From assembly GCA_913053845.1 (NCBI GenBank), contig CAJXGD010000009.1, positions 1 through 54,936 on the forward strand: a stretch of DNA of 54,936 nt, written 5' to 3'. The DNA is from an uncultured bacterium (lineage in GTDB: Bacteria > Bipolaricaulota > Bipolaricaulia > RBG-16-55-9 > DRJF01). Within the stretch, counting starts at the first letter, position 1. Each line of letters starts with the position of its first letter. Position numbers and translations under genes: made by a program. Positions 13,089 through 20,363 of the stretch are shown here, one piece after another. Under the pieces are notes generated by a model, which saw nothing but the letters and a program-made list of their open reading frames with translations, searched no databases and was not told the origin of the DNA.

Positions 13089-13769
13089 TCAGCGCCGCCC
13101 CCGCAGCCGGACGAGCAACCGCTCGGCGTTCTCCCCGACCACCCGCTGCGCTTCCTCTTCAGAGAGCCCCGCCCCGCGCGCGAGTCGAACGGCCCGCTCG
13201 GCGCCGATCAGATCATCCGGCCGGTGCGCATCGGTGTTTAGCAGCAAGAGCGACAGCGCTCCGGCTGCCCGCGCCAGCCGCACCAGGTGACCGTTCGCCG
13301 GACAGTGACCGCCTCGTGCGCTCAGCTCCAAAAAAATCCCCTTGCGCAAGGCCAATTCGGCCTCCTCACCAGAGAGCAAGCCCGGATGGGCCAGCAGGTC
13401 CACCTGGGGACATTCGAGCGCCGCGCGGTTCGTCCCCGGCTCCACCGGCTCGGAGAGCGTCTCACCATGCACCAGAACGATCTCTGCGCCCGCACGGCGC
13501 GCCCGCAGGGCTACCTCGGCGATCGCCCCCACAGGCACCTGAGTGATCTCCACACCGACAAACACTTCAATCTCTGACCAGGCACACGTCGCGTCCCGTT
13601 CGCGCCGCAACGCTTCCAGCACAGCTTCCACATTGGAGAGACTCACATGATCGGTCAAGGCCAGGACCGCTTGAGCGCGTTCCCGCGCACAGCGGATCAT
13701 CTCCAGCGGTGACCAGTTGCCATCATGACTTAGACTGGTGTGGCTGTGATACTCAATTCGCCTCATCAT
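13089..13769 (-). CDS. PHP-domain phosphatase, probable histidinol-phosphatase
   Basis: PHP-type metallohydrolase of 226 aa with the metal-binding motifs [10 protein letters not shown] (N-terminus), LTDH, GVEI, HGE, LAHPG and NTDAH in order. It is the last gene of the histidine operon, overlapping hisIE by four bases. The operon has no HisN or bifunctional HisB phosphatase, so this protein most likely removes phosphate from histidinol phosphate. It is shorter than classical HisK/HisJ (about 260-280 aa). The substrate is inferred from context. Confidence 0.75.
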
Positions 13770-14353
13770 CGCCTCCGCTCCAGCTCGGCTAACACCTCAG
13801 GCCAGCTCAATGAGCGTGCGAACAGCAGCAGGCATAGATGAAAGACCAGGTCCGCTGCTTCGTAGATCAGCTCCTCGCTCGAGGCAGCCAGCGCGACCTC
13901 AACGCCCTCCTCGCCGACCTTCTGACGCAGGTGGCGCTCGTCGCCGAGCAGACGATTGACGTACGAACCCGTCTGGGGATTCGCTGCCCGATCGGCGAAG
14001 ACGGCCCATAGCTCGTCGAGGATATTTGCGCTGAGATTGCCGAAACAGGTGGGCGAACCCAGATGACAGGCCGGGCCGGTCTGCACCACTCGTACCAGCA
14101 CGGCGTCCCGATCGCAGTCCAGCTGCAGCGAGAGGGCGCGCTGGACATGCCCCGAGGTTTCGCCCTTCTGCCATAGCTTCCGTCGCGAGCGGCTCCAGTA
14201 GTGCATTAAGCCGCTCTCCAGAGTTTTTTGCAGCGCCTCCCGATTGGCGTAAGCCAGCATGAGCACCCGTCCATCGGCGTCTTGAGCTATGACTGGCACC
14301 AGCCCCTCGGCGTTCCAACGAATCTCTTCCAGATCGAGCTTGAGCTCGCTCAT
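13766..14353 (-). CDS. hisIE: Phosphoribosyl-AMP cyclohydrolase / phosphoribosyl-ATP pyrophosphatase
   Basis: Bifunctional 195-aa enzyme for steps two and three of histidine synthesis. The N-terminal HisI domain shows [30 protein letters not shown] and the zinc/substrate cysteines in [14 protein letters not shown]; the C-terminal HisE domain shows [20 protein letters not shown] and [17 protein letters not shown] overlaps with hisF upstream and the PHP phosphatase downstream indicate tight coupling. Length is typical of the fused enzyme. Confidence 0.95.
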
Positions 14354-15108
14354 CGTACGATCACCCCTTTCCGGCGCAAGTAAGCTTTAACCTGGGCCAC
14401 GGTATACCGGCCGTAGTGAAAGATCGAGGCAGCCAGCGCCGCCTGTGCGCCACCCGCGCTCAGCGCCAGATAGAGATCTTCCGGCCTGCCTCCGCCGCCG
14501 GAGGCGATGACCGGCACACTTACGGCCTCGACGACCGCCCGCGTCAGCTCCAGATCGTAGCCATATGCCGTGCCGTCGGCGTCCATGCTGGTGAGCAAAA
14601 TCTCCCCCGCGCCCAACTTGACAACACGCTTGGCCCAGTCGATGGCATCCAGACCGGTTGGATTTCGTCCGCCATGGGTGTAGACCTCCCATTGAGCCGG
14701 ACCGGTCCGCTTGGCGTCGATGGCCAGCACCACGCATTGACACCCGAAGCGCTCGGCACAGTCAGCGATCAACCGGGGATTGCTCACCGCGTTCGTATTG
14801 ATCGCAACCTTATCGGCCCCGGCACGCAACGCCTGGTACATCTCGTCCACCGAGGAGATCCCGCCGCCCACGGTTAGCGGGATGAACAGCCGCTCGGCGG
14901 TGCGCTGCACGGCAGAGAGCAGCGTCTTGCGCCCTGCGACCGAAGCGCTGATGTCCAAGAAGACCATCTCATCGGCTCCTTGGGCTTCGTATCGTGTGGC
15001 CAGCTCGGCCGGATCGCCGATTGCTCGCAAATCCTGAAACCTTACTCCCTTGACCACCCGCCTGTCCTGCACGTCCAGACAGGGGATGATCCGCTTGGCC
15101 AGGCTCAT
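14350..15108 (-). CDS. hisF: Imidazole glycerol phosphate synthase subunit HisF
   Basis: Cyclase half of the HisFH glutamine amidotransferase complex, which converts PRFAR plus ammonia to IGP and AICAR. TIM barrel of 252 aa with the catalytic aspartates in IIPCLDVQ and SMDADGT, the first-half motif TVGGGI and the late motif [11 protein letters not shown] at 15108 is chosen since it forms the same four-base ATGA overlap (with hisB) seen at most other junctions of this operon; a GTG two codons earlier is an alternative. Its partner hisH is two genes upstream. Confidence 0.95.
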
Positions 15109-15656
15109 CGCCACTCGGCCTCCCCCTTAGCGCTGGCAACTCGGCCCATAGGCAGCACGGCCTGGCGCAGCGCCCGAGCGAGCCCCTTGAAGGCCGCTTC
15201 GACCAGGTGATGAGGGTCCTCGCCGGCCAGCGGGCGCACGTGCAGCGTGAATCTGCCCTCCAGAGCCATCGAGCGTAGGAAGTGTACATATAAGCCATCG
15301 GGCAACTCGACTTGCGCGTAAGGCCGCTCGACCAGATCGAGCGCCACCAGCACCAGCGCCTCATCCATCGGCACGACGACGTGAGCAAAGCGTTCGATCT
15401 TCAAGTCCGGTACAGCTTGGCGAATGGCCTGACCCAAGCAGAGGCCCACATCCTCGATGAGATGATGCTCATCTTCGCCGCTAGCAGTTACCTCAAGGTC
15501 GAGCCCACCGTGAATCGAAAAGCTCTCCAGCATGTGACGCAGAAAGTACGGTTCACAGCTCAGCTTCGCTCGACCGGCCCCCTGGAGGCGCAGCTTGAGC
15601 CCGACTTCAGTCTCGCGCGTGCGCCGTTGGACTTGAATCCAACTCTTCTCGGTCAT
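15105..15656 (-). CDS. hisB: Imidazoleglycerol-phosphate dehydratase, divergent
   Basis: Monofunctional HisB of 183 aa (family about 195). [10 protein letters not shown] at the N-terminus, [14 protein letters not shown] and [20 protein letters not shown] preserve the two HHxxE manganese sites. Departures from the family are visible: the usual FFDHML reads FLRHML, and the RYG before VPMDEA reads [13 protein letters not shown]. It still fits because its position between hisA and hisF fills the missing dehydratase step. Overlaps neighbours by four bases on each side. Confidence 0.9.
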
Positions 15657-16363
15657 CTTCTCGCTCCCTTCGTCTTGAGCTCTTTCAGATGAACGGTCCC
15701 CGCGTAGAGCGCCGTGCCCAGCACCACACCCGCCGCGCCCAGTTGATACGCTCTATAGACATCTTGGGCCCCGCGCAGGCCGCCGGCAACCAGCACCGGC
15801 GTCCGCACGGCCCGGCATAGGGCCGCGATGGGTTGCGGGTCCAGCCCCCGGAGCGAGCCCTCGATCTTCACATTGGTGTAGAGCAAGGCGGCCAAGCCAA
15901 GCGGGTCCACCTGACGGGCCAGCTCGAGCGCCCGCAGGCCCGAACCTCGCCTCCATCCTGAAGTTACGATCTCCTCGCCCCGCACGTCGAGCGCCAACAC
16001 GATGCGCTGCGGGAATCGTGCGGCTATCATCCGGAGCCATTCCGGGTCTTCGGCCCCGCGGGTGCCCACAATCACCCGTTCGGCTCCTATGTCGAGCCAA
16101 CGTGTGATGGCCCTCACCGCGTGCACCCCACCGCCGATCTGGACCGGAACGGACGCCGCCCGCACGATCTCTTCCAGCAGTTCGCGATTATCCCCCTGTC
16201 CCAAGGCCGCATCGAGATCGATCAGGTGCAGTCCGTCGGCGCCCTCTGCGGCGAAGCGCTGAGCCGCTTCCAAGGGATCCTGTGCGAAGCGCGCCGTGGC
16301 CGGATCGCCGCCTAGCAACTGGACGCAGCGCCCACCCAGCAGGTCAACCGCCGCCCAGATCAT
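15653..16363 (-). CDS. hisA: ProFAR isomerase HisA
   Basis: Opens the ribose ring of 5'-ProFAR by Amadori rearrangement. Barrel of 236 aa with AAVDLLGG (catalytic Asp), HLIDLDAALG, VQIGGGV, ALDVRG and VLVAGGL, ending VVLGTALYAG. The second catalytic position, normally in a DGT motif after strand 6, reads EGS here (NVKIEGSLRG), a conservative Asp-to-Glu change worth noting. Four-base overlaps with hisH and hisB. Confidence 0.92.
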   Translation of the reverse strand: MIWAAVDLLGGRCVQLLGGDPATARFAQDPLEAAQRFAAEGADGLHLIDLDAALGQGDNRELLEEIVRAASVPVQIGGGVHAVRAITRWLDIGAERVIVGTRGAEDPEWLRMIAARFPQRIVLALDVRGEEIVTSGWRRGSGLRALELARQVDPLGLAALLYTNVKIEGSLRGLDPQPIAALCRAVRTPVLVAGGLRGAQDVYRAYQLGAAGVVLGTALYAGTVHLKELKTKGARR

Positions 16364-16959
16364 CGCGCCCCCTCGGCCAGAGAGAGGAAGTTCTCCAAGA
16401 GCTTCAGCCCCCGGCGGCCGCTCTTCTCCGGATGAAACTGCACCGCGTAGCTCCAGGGACCGGCACGCACTGCGGCCACCAACCGGCCCTCGTACTCCGT
16501 CCAGGCCAGAGCACCCTCCGAGCGGGTGATCCCATAACTGTGAACGAAGTAGAAATATGCCCCTTGAGGAATGCCTGTAAAGAGCGTATCTTTCGCGTGC
16601 TCAACGGTGTTCCAGCCCATGTGGGGCAGGCGCCGGGCCGGCAGCTTGACCACCCTGCCGGGGAGCAGGCCCAAGCCGGCCACATCCGGCGCCTCCTCGC
16701 TCTGCTCGAAGAGCAATTGCATGCCGATGCAAATGCCCAGGGCAGGCTTTTCGCAGACGCGCTGCCGTAGCGCCTCGCGGTGATCTTCAATCCTGTGCAT
16801 CATGGGGCCAAACGCCCCGTCGCCCGGCAAGATCAGCACTTGGGCCTCAAGCCAGCGCACGATCTCCGGCGTCACCTCGACTCTTGCGCCCAGCCGCTCC
16901 AGTGCCTTCTTCAAGCTGTGCAGGTTGCCCACTCCTAGATCGGCCACGGTCACCTGCAT
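16360..16959 (-). CDS. hisH: Imidazole glycerol phosphate synthase subunit HisH
   Basis: Class I glutamine amidotransferase of 199 aa that feeds ammonia to HisF. The nucleophile is in ALGICIGMQLLF, the oxyanion strand in LILPGDGAFG (usual LPGVGAF, here with D), and the catalytic His/Glu in VQFHPEKSG. The Y-[FV]-x-H element reads YFVHSYG. Overlaps hisC by ten bases upstream and hisA by four downstream. Confidence 0.95.
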   Translation of the reverse strand: MQVTVADLGVGNLHSLKKALERLGARVEVTPEIVRWLEAQVLILPGDGAFGPMMHRIEDHREALRQRVCEKPALGICIGMQLLFEQSEEAPDVAGLGLLPGRVVKLPARRLPHMGWNTVEHAKDTLFTGIPQGAYFYFVHSYGITRSEGALAWTEYEGRLVAAVRAGPWSYAVQFHPEKSGRRGLKLLENFLSLAEGAR

Positions 16960-17984
16960 GGCAGCACCTCGTCCAGCGCGGTCAGCAGCACTTCGAGATC
17001 GTCCGGCGTGCCCACGGTGATCCGAACGCAGCGTTGCAGGCGCGGATGCGAGCCGGCCGAGCGCACCAGGACGCGCCGGTCGGCCAATTCACGGACCAAG
17101 GTATCACGGTCGAACCCTTGAGGGACCGCGGCCAGGAGGAAATTCGCCTGCGAGGGCCAGACCCGAAATCCCCTCCGAGAGAGGGCCTGCGCCCAGCGGG
17201 GGCGCTCCCGGCGGATGAGCGCCAGATAATCGCGCACGAATGGCTGTTCATTCAGCGCCGCCGTGGCCAGGGCTTGGCTCAGGGCGTTCAGGTTGTAAGG
17301 CAGCCGTGCCCGCTCGATTTGCTCGATCAGCTCGGGGCACGCAGCGAGATAACCCACGCGCAGCCCCGCCAGGCCATAGGCCTTGGAGAAGGTGCGCGTC
17401 ACCAATAGATTGGGAAACTCACACGCCCGCTCGATCCAATTAGCCCCTGCGAACTCGCCGTAGGCTTCGTCGATCACCACCGGATGGCCGGAGCGCAGCA
17501 CGGCCTCAATTGAGTTGGGACTTAGCGTGTTACCCGTGGGGTTATTCGGCGTGCAGAGCACGATCAGCTCCGCGTCGACGCCCAAGATCGCATCAGCCTT
17601 CAGGTCGAAGGCCGCATCGAGCGGCACCTCAATAGGACGGGCAGCGTTGATTAGCGCGTAATGACGGTACATGGCGTAACTCGGGTTGGGGAAGACTACC
17701 GGGTCCCCGGGATTCAAAAACGTCTTGAAGATCAGGTCGAAGACCTCGTTCGAGCCGTTGGCCACCAGAAAATTCTCCGGCTGTAGTCCATAGCGCACGG
17801 CCAGCGCCCGACGCAGCGTTTGGGCTCGGCTGTTGGGATAGTCGCTCAGGTCGATCCCGGCGAAGAGCCGGGCCATCTGACCCGCGGCCGGGTTCGTCCC
17901 CAGACGGTTGGTGTTGCGGTGCAGCGCCAACCCTTTGGCCTCCGGCGGGCGATATGGCTTCAGAGAACGCAAGCTCTCTCTCAT
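16950..17984 (-). CDS. hisC: Histidinol-phosphate aminotransferase
   Basis: PLP-dependent fold-type I aminotransferase of 344 aa. The pyridoxal lysine lies in TRTFSKAYGLAGLRVGY; NPNSYAMYR, CTPNNPTGN and VIDEAYGEF are the family anchors. It transfers the amino group from glutamate to imidazole acetol phosphate. ATG at 17984 forms ATGA with the end of hisD. Confidence 0.95.
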   Translation of the reverse strand: MRESLRSLKPYRPPEAKGLALHRNTNRLGTNPAAGQMARLFAGIDLSDYPNSRAQTLRRALAVRYGLQPENFLVANGSNEVFDLIFKTFLNPGDPVVFPNPSYAMYRHYALINAARPIEVPLDAAFDLKADAILGVDAELIVLCTPNNPTGNTLSPNSIEAVLRSGHPVVIDEAYGEFAGANWIERACEFPNLLVTRTFSKAYGLAGLRVGYLAACPELIEQIERARLPYNLNALSQALATAALNEQPFVRDYLALIRRERPRWAQALSRRGFRVWPSQANFLLAAVPQGFDRDTLVRELADRRVLVRSAGSHPRLQRCVRITVGTPDDLEVLLTALDEVLPCR

Positions 17985-19273
17985 CGCCCTTCCTCCTGCA
18001 ACCTCATCCGGATGGAGGCCGCATGGGCGCGCATCCCCTCGGCCTGAGCCAGCGCGATGGCCGTGGGAGCCAATGCTTGCAAACCCTGAGGGCTAACCCG
18101 CTGGTAGGAGATGGTCTTGACGAAGTCGCGGACGCTCAGACCGCCGCCGAAGCGCGCTCGGCCCGCCGTGGGTAGAATATGATTGGTCCCCGAGGCGTAG
18201 TCGCCCAGCGCCACCGGCGACCAGGGCCCCAAGAAGACCGAGCCGGCGTTCTCGATCTGCTCCAGCCAATGCTCCGCACCGTCGCTCCATAGGCATAAAT
18301 GCTCCGGCGCGTAAGCGTTGACGAAGTCGAGAGCAACCGGCTGTTTCTGATAATGCAGCACGGTCACCTGGCGATCTCTTACTTCATCAGGGTCCAACCC
18401 CTGAGCTACCTCTCGGGCTAACTTCGGTAGGCTCGTGAGGAGCAGCGCCGAGCTCCCCGACCCATGCTCCAATTGTGCTCTGAGCTCCGAGAGTGACCAG
18501 CGGGCCAAGGTCGCTTCAGAGAGCTTGGCCACGCGGTCGACAATTAGAAGGATCTCGCTCGGTCCGGCGAGCAGGTCAATGCCCACTTCACCCTGTACCA
18601 GTGCCTTGGCCGCGGTGACGTAGGCGTTGCCCGGCCCGGCGATCTTCTGAACGCGTCCGATCGATTCAGTTCCGTAGGCCAAAGCGGCAATCGCTTGAGC
18701 GCCGCCGACGGCGTAGAGCTCATTTATCTCAAGCAGGGCCGCAGCCGCCTGCACGATTTGGGGGATGCGGCCATCGGGGCCCGGAGGCGTACAGACGGCG
18801 AGCTCAGCTACTCCGGCGAGGCGCGCAGGGACCGCCGCCATCAATAGTGAGGAGGGCAAATTGCGTGGAACATAAAGCCCTACCCTTCGGAAGGGCTTCA
18901 CCAGTTGTCCCAGCTCGCTACCCGGCGCGACCTCCAGGTGATAACTTGAGAGGTGCTGGTGCTCATGGAAGCGCTCGATCTGCCGCTTGGCTGTTTCTAG
19001 CGCCGCTTGGAGTTCAGGATCAAGTGCTTGGAGCGCCCGGCGCTGCGCCTCCTGAGAAACACGCAGATCGTTCAACCGCACGCCGTCGAAGCGCTCGGTG
19101 AGTTCCCGCAGAGCCGCGTCGCCTCGTCGGCGCACTTCGGCCAAGATCTCGGCAACCTGGTCGCTCAGTAAGGGCATATCGCCATACGTCCCTACATCCC
19201 AGGGGACGGGCCGACTCAACAGTCGCCCTTTTTCAGCTTCACTTAAGCTTTCCAATTGAACGATGTCGGTCAT
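17981..19273 (-). CDS. hisD: Histidinol dehydrogenase
   Basis: NAD-dependent zinc enzyme of 430 aa carrying out the last two oxidations to L-histidine. Family signatures: GLYVPRNLPSSLLMAAVPA, GGAQAIAALAYGTESI, KIAGPGNAYVTAAK, GIDLLAGPSEILLIVD, the catalytic Glu/His in APEHL and LGDYASGTNHILPT. It is the second gene of the operon, ATGA-overlapping both hisG and hisC. Confidence 0.96.
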   Translation of the reverse strand: MTDIVQLESLSEAEKGRLLSRPVPWDVGTYGDMPLLSDQVAEILAEVRRRGDAALRELTERFDGVRLNDLRVSQEAQRRALQALDPELQAALETAKRQIERFHEHQHLSSYHLEVAPGSELGQLVKPFRRVGLYVPRNLPSSLLMAAVPARLAGVAELAVCTPPGPDGRIPQIVQAAAALLEINELYAVGGAQAIAALAYGTESIGRVQKIAGPGNAYVTAAKALVQGEVGIDLLAGPSEILLIVDRVAKLSEATLARWSLSELRAQLEHGSGSSALLLTSLPKLAREVAQGLDPDEVRDRQVTVLHYQKQPVALDFVNAYAPEHLCLWSDGAEHWLEQIENAGSVFLGPWSPVALGDYASGTNHILPTAGRARFGGGLSVRDFVKTISYQRVSPQGLQALAPTAIALAQAEGMRAHAASIRMRLQEEGR

Positions 19274-20130
19274 GGCACCATCCTTTCGATGGGTAAGACG
19301 AGCAAGCCCTCCGCGCCATAACGCTTGAGCGCCGGGATCAGGCCGTTGATCTGATCCTCAGGTACCACGGCGTGCAGGGCGACCCAGTCCTCTCGGCCGA
19401 GCAGGTGCATCACCGTGGGCGCAGTCGCGCCGGGCAGCAGCGCCTTGACCTCCTCTAGCCGGGCTTGGGGCAGGTTGACCATCAGGTAGCGCTTGGTCTG
19501 AGCGTCAAGTACGCTCTTGAGCGCGGCCTGCAGTTCGTAGAACAGGGGCTTTCGAGCATCTGAACTCTGGGGATTGGCGATCAACACGGCCTCCGACCGG
19601 AGCAGCGTCTCCAGCTCGACGAGGCCGTTCTGGCGCAAGGTGGAACCGGTCTCCACCAGATCGGTGATCGCCTCGGCCACCCCCACCTGAGGGGCCACCT
19701 CGGTCGCGCCGGAGAGCGGCACGATCTCCACCGAGATGCCCCGCTGGGCGAAGAAACGGGCCGTCAGTCGAGGGAAGATCGTGGCCACCCGCTTCCCTGC
19801 CAACTGGGCCGGCTCACTGATCCCGCTCAGGCGCGGGACGGCCACGACCAAGCGACAGCGACCGAAGCCCAGCGGAAGAAGTGTTTGCACCGGTAGGTCG
19901 CTCTCGGCCACCTGATCGAGTCCGGTGATGCCGGCGTCGGCGGTGCCGGTAGCCACGTATTCCGGGATGTCTCCCGTGCGCACGAAGAGCAAGCGCCAGC
20001 GACCGTTGACGTCGGCGAGCAGCCGACGCGCGTGGCGTGGGACGTGCAGACCTGCCTTGGAGAGCAGTTCTAACGTCCGGTCGCTCAAGCGTCCCTTACT
20101 GGGCACGGCGATCTTCAATAGATCGGTCAT
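19270..20130 (-). CDS. hisG: ATP phosphoribosyltransferase, long form
   Basis: First and committed enzyme of histidine synthesis (ATP + PRPP). At 286 aa it is the long HisG form with its own C-terminal regulatory domain, here YLMVNLPQARLEEVKALLPG onward, which normally binds histidine for feedback inhibition; no hisZ is needed or seen. Catalytic-core landmarks: AVPSKGRL, DAGITGLDQV and the PRPP loop EAITDLVETGSTLRQNGL. The ribosome binding site AGGGTG lies five to ten bases before ATG 20130 and is part of an inverted repeat (20134-20141 with 20188-20195), so translation may be gated by the leader RNA. Confidence 0.95.
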   Translation of the reverse strand: MTDLLKIAVPSKGRLSDRTLELLSKAGLHVPRHARRLLADVNGRWRLLFVRTGDIPEYVATGTADAGITGLDQVAESDLPVQTLLPLGFGRCRLVVAVPRLSGISEPAQLAGKRVATIFPRLTARFFAQRGISVEIVPLSGATEVAPQVGVAEAITDLVETGSTLRQNGLVELETLLRSEAVLIANPQSSDARKPLFYELQAALKSVLDAQTKRYLMVNLPQARLEEVKALLPGATAPTVMHLLGREDWVALHAVVPEDQINGLIPALKRYGAEGLLVLPIERMVP

Positions 20131-20133
20131 AGC

Positions 20134-20195
20134 CGCACCCTGCGCTTAAAATAAACGCCGGAAACGTTGTTGCAGGACGCTGGAATGAGGGTGCG
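20134..20195 (-). promoter_or_regulatory. Leader inverted repeat that can mask the hisG ribosome binding site
   Basis: In the transcript CGCACCCT (20195-20188) is perfectly complementary to AGGGTGCG (20141-20134), which contains the hisG Shine-Dalgarno. A second hairpin, GAGCC-TCA-GGCTC, sits right after the leader-peptide stop and competes with a GGGTTC/GAGCCT pairing in the last leader codons. A weak hairpin GCGTTTA-TTT-TAAGCGC precedes the ribosome binding site. Mutually exclusive structures controlled by ribosome position are inferred. Confidence 0.5.
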
Positions 20196-20214
20196 CGAGG
20201 TTAGAGCCTGAGGC

Positions 20215-20301
20215 TCAATGAACCCAGTGGCAGGGATGATGATGCGCGGTGAGACTACTCAGGAAGAAGTTCGTCAAGCTGCTAGACATTTGACTACGCA
20301 T
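20215..20301 (-). CDS. hisL: His operon leader peptide, 28 aa
   Basis: Small frame of 28 codons starting at ATG 20301 with AGGGG nine bases upstream and ending at TGA 20217-20215. The peptide ends TAHHHPCHWVH: histidine at residues 20, 21, 22, 25 and 28, five of the last nine residues. It lies between a promoter and hisG, about 85 bases upstream of hisG. This is the classic arrangement of a histidine attenuator, in which ribosome stalling at His codons when charged tRNA-His is scarce switches the RNA structure that follows. Function is inferred from this arrangement. Confidence 0.75.
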   Translation of the reverse strand: MRSQMSSSLTNFFLSSLTAHHHPCHWVH

Positions 20302-20334
20302 TTGCTATCACCCCTATAGACAAGATTGGGCAAC

Positions 20335-20363
20335 AGTATACCGGCCTCGGCGAACCGTTGCAA
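20335..20363 (-). promoter_or_regulatory. Promoter of the histidine operon
   Basis: TTGCAA (20363-20358), 17-base spacer, TATACT (20340-20335) on the minus strand, directly downstream of the thrS stop and about 34 bases before the leader peptide ATG. Confidence 0.7.

Follow-up and report, generated by a model that had tools for sequence, protein, structure and literature searches.

The his operon of this uncultured bacterium of the Bipolaricaulota is, in all likelihood, headed by a histidine-specific leader-peptide attenuator located before hisG. Because the His-run ending of the leader peptide is kept in distant relatives, it is very probable that histidine shortage is sensed here through ribosome stalling, as in the hisL leader of E. 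coli. By analogy with hisL, a ribosome translating the leader would be arrested at the His-His-His run under a shortage of charged tRNA-His, whereas an ample supply would let it reach the leader stop codon. The two positions would free different stretches of RNA, with the result that expression of the his operon would be raised or lowered, and we infer that it is a low level of charged tRNA-His that, via stalling, drives expression up.

The Leader Peptide Gene and Its Signals

Within the window (that is, the whole stretch of 54,936 nucleotides that was analysed), the his operon is complete, with the order hisG-D-C-H-A-B-F-IE, hisG being the first gene and the genes overlapping. The relevant features, in the direction of transcription, are as follows.

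20392, reverse strand: end of thrS, the upstream neighbour of the promoter
20335–20363, reverse strand: sigma-70-type promoter TTGCAA-17-TATACT (matches compared with shuffles; equivalents at the same place in relatives)
20307–20315, reverse strand: leader Shine-Dalgarno AGGGGTGAT, doubling as 5′ arm of the lock helix described below
20215–20301, reverse strand: histidine leader peptide gene, MRSQMSSSLTNFFLSSLTAHHHPCHWVH* (kept in four lineages; chance scan)
20232–20240, reverse strand: ATCATCCCT, lying within codons His21–Cys24 and serving as the lock's 3′ arm opposite the leader Shine-Dalgarno
20204–20216, reverse strand: small hairpin GAGCC-TCA-GGCTC over the leader stop codon (RNA folding)
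20188–20195, reverse strand: CGCACCCT, 5′ arm of a hairpin over the hisG ribosome site (folding; not conserved)
20134–20141, reverse strand: AGGGTGCG, 3′ arm of that hairpin, with the hisG Shine-Dalgarno (folding, pair counts)
19270–20130, reverse strand: hisG, ATP phosphoribosyltransferase, long form (Pfam HisG and HisG_C)
13766–19273, reverse strand: hisD, hisC, hisH, hisA, hisB, hisF and hisIE, the rest of the operon, with overlaps of a few bases throughout

The initial annotation had described a His-rich frame of 28 codons with its own promoter and ribosome site, and all of these elements are present. The frame runs from an ATG at 20301 to a TGA at 20217–20215 and has histidine at five of its last nine positions. 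At 20363–20335, TTGCAA-17-TATACT gives two overlapping promoter matches, versus 0.2 expected from shuffles, and the transcript of the his leader presumably starts near 20328. The segment GGTGAT within AGGGGTGAT is the complement of the 16S 3′ end, TGGATCACCTCCTTT, as taken from the same genome. Rfam scans at the leader site returned no known RNA family, and a T-box covariance match, also sought there through Rfam, was absent.

A small frame of this kind could in principle be a functionless, chance His-rich sequence, as it is short. However, its place and sequence are kept in four lineages, and it is the sole frame end in the 55-kb window, among 3198 stop-terminated ends, with at least five His in the last 11 codons, where a mononucleotide shuffle of the window is expected to yield 0.017. 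We therefore regard a chance origin as very improbable.

Conservation across the Phylum

The conservation set consisted of 100 genomes of Bipolaricaulota (a phylum also called Acetothermia). HisG occurs in nine of them, five of which have the long form found in the window, and in four of these five a leader of the same type lies directly upstream of hisG. The leaders end in ...SSLTAHHHPCHWVH (window), ...SGLSAHHHPHHWVH (G094, locus L009), ...GVLAAHHHSAYWLH (G013, L010) and ...RGFSAHHHPVHHLH (G004, L005). The C-terminal runs of the relatives read ...AHHHPHHWVH, ...AHHHSAYWLH and ...AHHHPVHHLH, so that the search for conserved His codons upstream of hisG, which had been suggested as a check on the frame, uncovered the ending AHHH..(W/H)(V/L)H* in four lineages; the sample comprises only four sequences, two of them close to each other. 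Comparison of the window leader with that of G094 shows many substitutions in the N-terminal half and an unchanged AHHHP.HWVH. The gap from the leader stop codon to hisG is 84 bases in the window, 78 in L009, 96 in L010 and 71 in L005. Promoters are found at the equivalent place in the relatives (TTGATA-17-TATAAT, TTGCAA-17-TATGAT and, read in L009, TTGCAC-17-TATACT), while the 3′ arm of the small hairpin over the stop codon is not kept in L009.

A degenerate DNA pattern for the leader ending matched at exactly four places in the 100 genomes, all of them these leaders, and this pattern search yielded no further copies in the set; the reversed pattern, used as a control on the same genomes, gave zero matches, and a scan of viral contigs with the leader pattern gave none. 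At the level of sequence, then, conservation demonstrates the sensing half of the system, namely the leader peptide, its His codons and its own promoter.

The relative G013 is placed in the same order as the window genome. The genome carrying L009 (JAJRTG010000079.1, i.e., contig G094:C34) is placed in another family, despite a HisG that is 88% identical to that of the window; the NCBI title assigns this contig to Neomarinimicrobiota. Given this likeness and the presence of HisG in only 9 of the 100 genomes, either horizontal transfer of the operon together with its leader or misbinning could be involved.

Other small frames were seen near his genes. In G006 (L004), the fifth genome with a long HisG, a different frame of 54 codons, located about 310–110 bases before hisG and behind GGGAGG, ends in HHLHPLHFAHRAVHRAHP*; its sequence is unrelated to the other leaders, and it is possibly an independent histidine leader. 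G035 and G023 encode a short HisG behind hisZ, and His-containing small frames precede hisZ (positions 413–503 of L007 in G035, and 409–493 of L006 in G023, reverse strand). These frames begin about 7 bases past a TTGACA-17-TATNAT promoter and seem to lack a ribosome site; their first codon apparently lies very close to the 5′ end of the transcript, and a conserved hairpin, GGAGATG...CATCTCC, then follows. In G023, a one-base deletion alters the end of the peptide, with HH and the hairpin being kept.

A Hairpin Covering the hisG Shine-Dalgarno

In the window, the hisG Shine-Dalgarno is covered by a perfect 8-bp complementarity, CGCACCCT:AGGGTGCG, as the initial annotation had pointed out. It had been taken to suggest translational attenuation, whereby the pairing would hide the hisG site when histidine is plentiful, and a stalled ribosome would promote an alternative fold that frees the site. 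This hairpin does exist, and it shuts the site by about 10 kcal/mol, a closure that is mildly unusual for the base composition, as 16 of 300 shuffles are at least as tight (approximately the upper 5%). Moreover, attenuators that sequester a ribosome binding site are named as an accepted type (PMC9413887), and no intrinsic terminator was found in the window leader.

However, the pairing is not conserved. The duplex energy falls from –16.2 kcal/mol in the window to –6.8 kcal/mol in L009, the nearest relative, and to about –6 kcal/mol in the others, where the pairing is lost; over the leaders, 21 of the 32 cells of the masking pairing are paired, with a covariation no better than that of a slid control. 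The hisG sites of the relatives are open, since 288, 264 and 185 of 300 shuffles, respectively, are at least as closed. Masking of the hisG site as a conserved output was consequently rejected, on the basis of both folding against shuffles and pair counts.

Neither did the position of the ribosome affect the opening of the site in the window. When the ribosome was modeled with a footprint reaching 12 bases past the A-site codon's first base and the downstream RNA was folded, opening the hisG site cost 9.5 kcal/mol for a ribosome on the first His codon versus 10.6 kcal/mol for one on the stop codon, and opening the stretch up to the AUG cost 12.6 kcal/mol in both cases. In none of the five loci did equilibrium folding reveal a ribosome-position switch that opens the hisG site. 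The window RNA could form alternative pairings, between the leader Shine-Dalgarno and the masking arm (1:3, –11.7 kcal/mol) and between the His codons and the hisG site (2:4, –16.8 kcal/mol, weaker or absent in relatives), but the "competing" nature previously ascribed to the hairpins was an interpretation, and folding by ribosome position shows no competition for the hisG site. The equilibrium model leaves out folding during transcription, so a switch at the hisG site may still exist, but it gains no support from these data. Since the pairing is unconserved, the relatives' sites are open and accessibility hardly differs between a ribosome on the first His codon and one on the stop codon, we find translational attenuation rather doubtful as an account of the output. 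What stands of that proposal is the closure of the site by the hairpin, in the window only.

Terminators and a Predicted Antiterminator

Between the leader and hisG, no intrinsic terminator (a G+C-rich hairpin followed by a T-run) was detected in the window, L005 or L009, which for the window agrees with the earlier remark that a strong U-tract terminator is lacking. Classical transcription attenuation in the window would have to rely on a weak hairpin, AACG...CGTT, followed by TATTTT. A T-rich TTTATTTT does follow a short stem at 20168–20147, and a relative, G013, has a good terminator; but the stem in the window measures only 4 bp, the terminator scan was negative, and the T-run is absent in L009, making this mechanism quite improbable.

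The intrinsic terminator of G013 (L010), CAGTCGGTCTTCCACCGATTG-CTTTTG, lies between the leader and hisG. The transcript was folded at the point where it just reaches the 5′ arm of the terminator. If the ribosome occupied either of the first two His codons, ACUGGCU, which lies within the Tyr-Trp-Leu codons after the His run, paired with AGUCGGU at an energy of –4.0 kcal/mol; for a ribosome on the last His codon or the stop codon, this pairing was impossible. ACUGGCU is thus predicted to engage the 5′ arm of the terminator only if the ribosome is held at His, and the modeled logic is the classical one, in which a stalled ribosome leads to an antiterminator and hence to expression. Based on this model, the output in G013 is most likely transcription termination, although, at –4 kcal/mol, the antiterminator is outweighed by the completed terminator (–9.5 kcal/mol), implying that kinetics would matter. 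In the window, a terminator may be replaced by the strong hairpin that covers the ribosome site of hisG.

Attenuation could alternatively depend on Rho, which, once the ribosome leaves at the stop codon, would load on the C-rich, G-poor spacer and end transcription, stalled ribosomes altering this outcome. C exceeds G in the spacer at every locus checked (in L009, for instance, C makes up 47% and G 19%), the genome contains a rho gene, and the window showed no intrinsic terminator. Base composition alone is nonetheless weak evidence, the spacer would be left uncovered by a ribosome halted on the His codons, and G013 possesses an intrinsic terminator. A Rho-dependent output thus seems unlikely to us.

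A Helix between the Leader Ribosome Site and the His Codons

Each of the four leaders folds back on itself, the Shine-Dalgarno (GGRGTGAT) being paired to the His-His-Pro/Ser codons of the same leader, to form GGGGUGAU:AUCAUCCC in the window and L005, GGGGUGAU:AUCACCCC in L009, and GGAGUGAU:AUCACUCC in L010. In this helix, which we term the lock, 33 of the 36 cells are paired over the four sequences and there is one compensatory change, from G-C to A-U in L010, coinciding with the replacement of Pro by Ser after the His run; four sequences and a single compensatory change are few for an assessment of covariation. Opening the leader start costs 14.6–16.4 kcal/mol in the four leaders, values that rank in the upper 3–12% of codon permutations and in the upper 2–17% of synonymous recodings. 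For E. coli hisL the cost is 2.6 kcal/mol, with no excess.

Part of the lock may derive simply from the likeness of CAYCAY to the anti-Shine-Dalgarno, which readily lets a His run pair to some degree with an extended Shine-Dalgarno. Considering the anti-Shine-Dalgarno core, ATCACC, His runs could fold back on extended ribosome sites, and such a fold-back could matter for His-rich leaders generally.

The lock would limit translation of the leader to ribosomes that load during RNA synthesis, or block repeat loading, and it may shut any leader that is transcribed without a ribosome loading on it. Comparable closure was earlier described for the ribosome site of the trp leader in E. coli. We tentatively put forward, as a possibility short of a probable one, that the leader is self-locking: its sensor codons would act as the antisense of its own ribosome site, so that a stalled ribosome would keep the start open and a finishing ribosome would let it close.

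Comparison with Known Leaders

The window leader resembles enteric hisL (Rfam RF00514, His_leader) in having a short leader peptide with consecutive His codons, placed immediately ahead of hisG, its own promoter and proposed competing RNA folds. It differs in that a strong terminator is missing, in that the start of the leader is locked by its own His codons, and in that the peptides show no likeness outside the His run. RF00514 gave no match, the E-value limit being 10 for the window and 1 for the relatives, whereas E. coli K-12, the positive control, scored 131.6 bits.

Histidine leader peptides were found first in Proteobacteria and later in a few Firmicutes, where His-rich leader peptides precede his genes and an independent origin has been proposed (Naville and Gautheret 2010, PMC2965389; BMC Genomics 2022, PMC9413887). 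Like these, the Bipolaricaulota leaders encode a His-rich peptide before his genes outside the Proteobacteria; the Firmicutes leaders carry predicted terminator and antiterminator hairpins, whereas only one of the four Bipolaricaulota leaders does, in a comparison made by description and with another phylum. The window also shares with RBS-sequestering attenuators a strong hairpin over the ribosome site of the first gene, but its hairpin is unconserved and no ribosome-dependent switch was found. In the literature on Bipolaricaulota/Acetothermia we found no report of a histidine leader, and papers dealing with Bipolaricaulota and histidine are silent on regulation. As far as the literature searched shows, a histidine leader-peptide attenuator is therefore new for Bipolaricaulota, and the self-lock is possibly a new feature of such leaders.

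Implications

As conservation extends to the sensing half but not to the RNA downstream of it, the situation is most simply viewed as one shared sensor whose outputs differ by lineage: in G013 a terminator, and in the window possibly a masked hisG site or Rho. A sensing peptide that is kept while the RNA downstream changes supports a repeated origin, or a wide spread, of this type of control. If the self-lock is true, translation of the leader would be one-shot or self-limiting, the Pro/Ser residue of the peptide would be set by RNA pairing, and the lock would represent the conserved core of the system, with the output (terminator or masked ribosome site) being exchangeable among lineages. A leader folded onto its own His codons would be a concrete and testable design feature, one that is missing from E. 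coli hisL.
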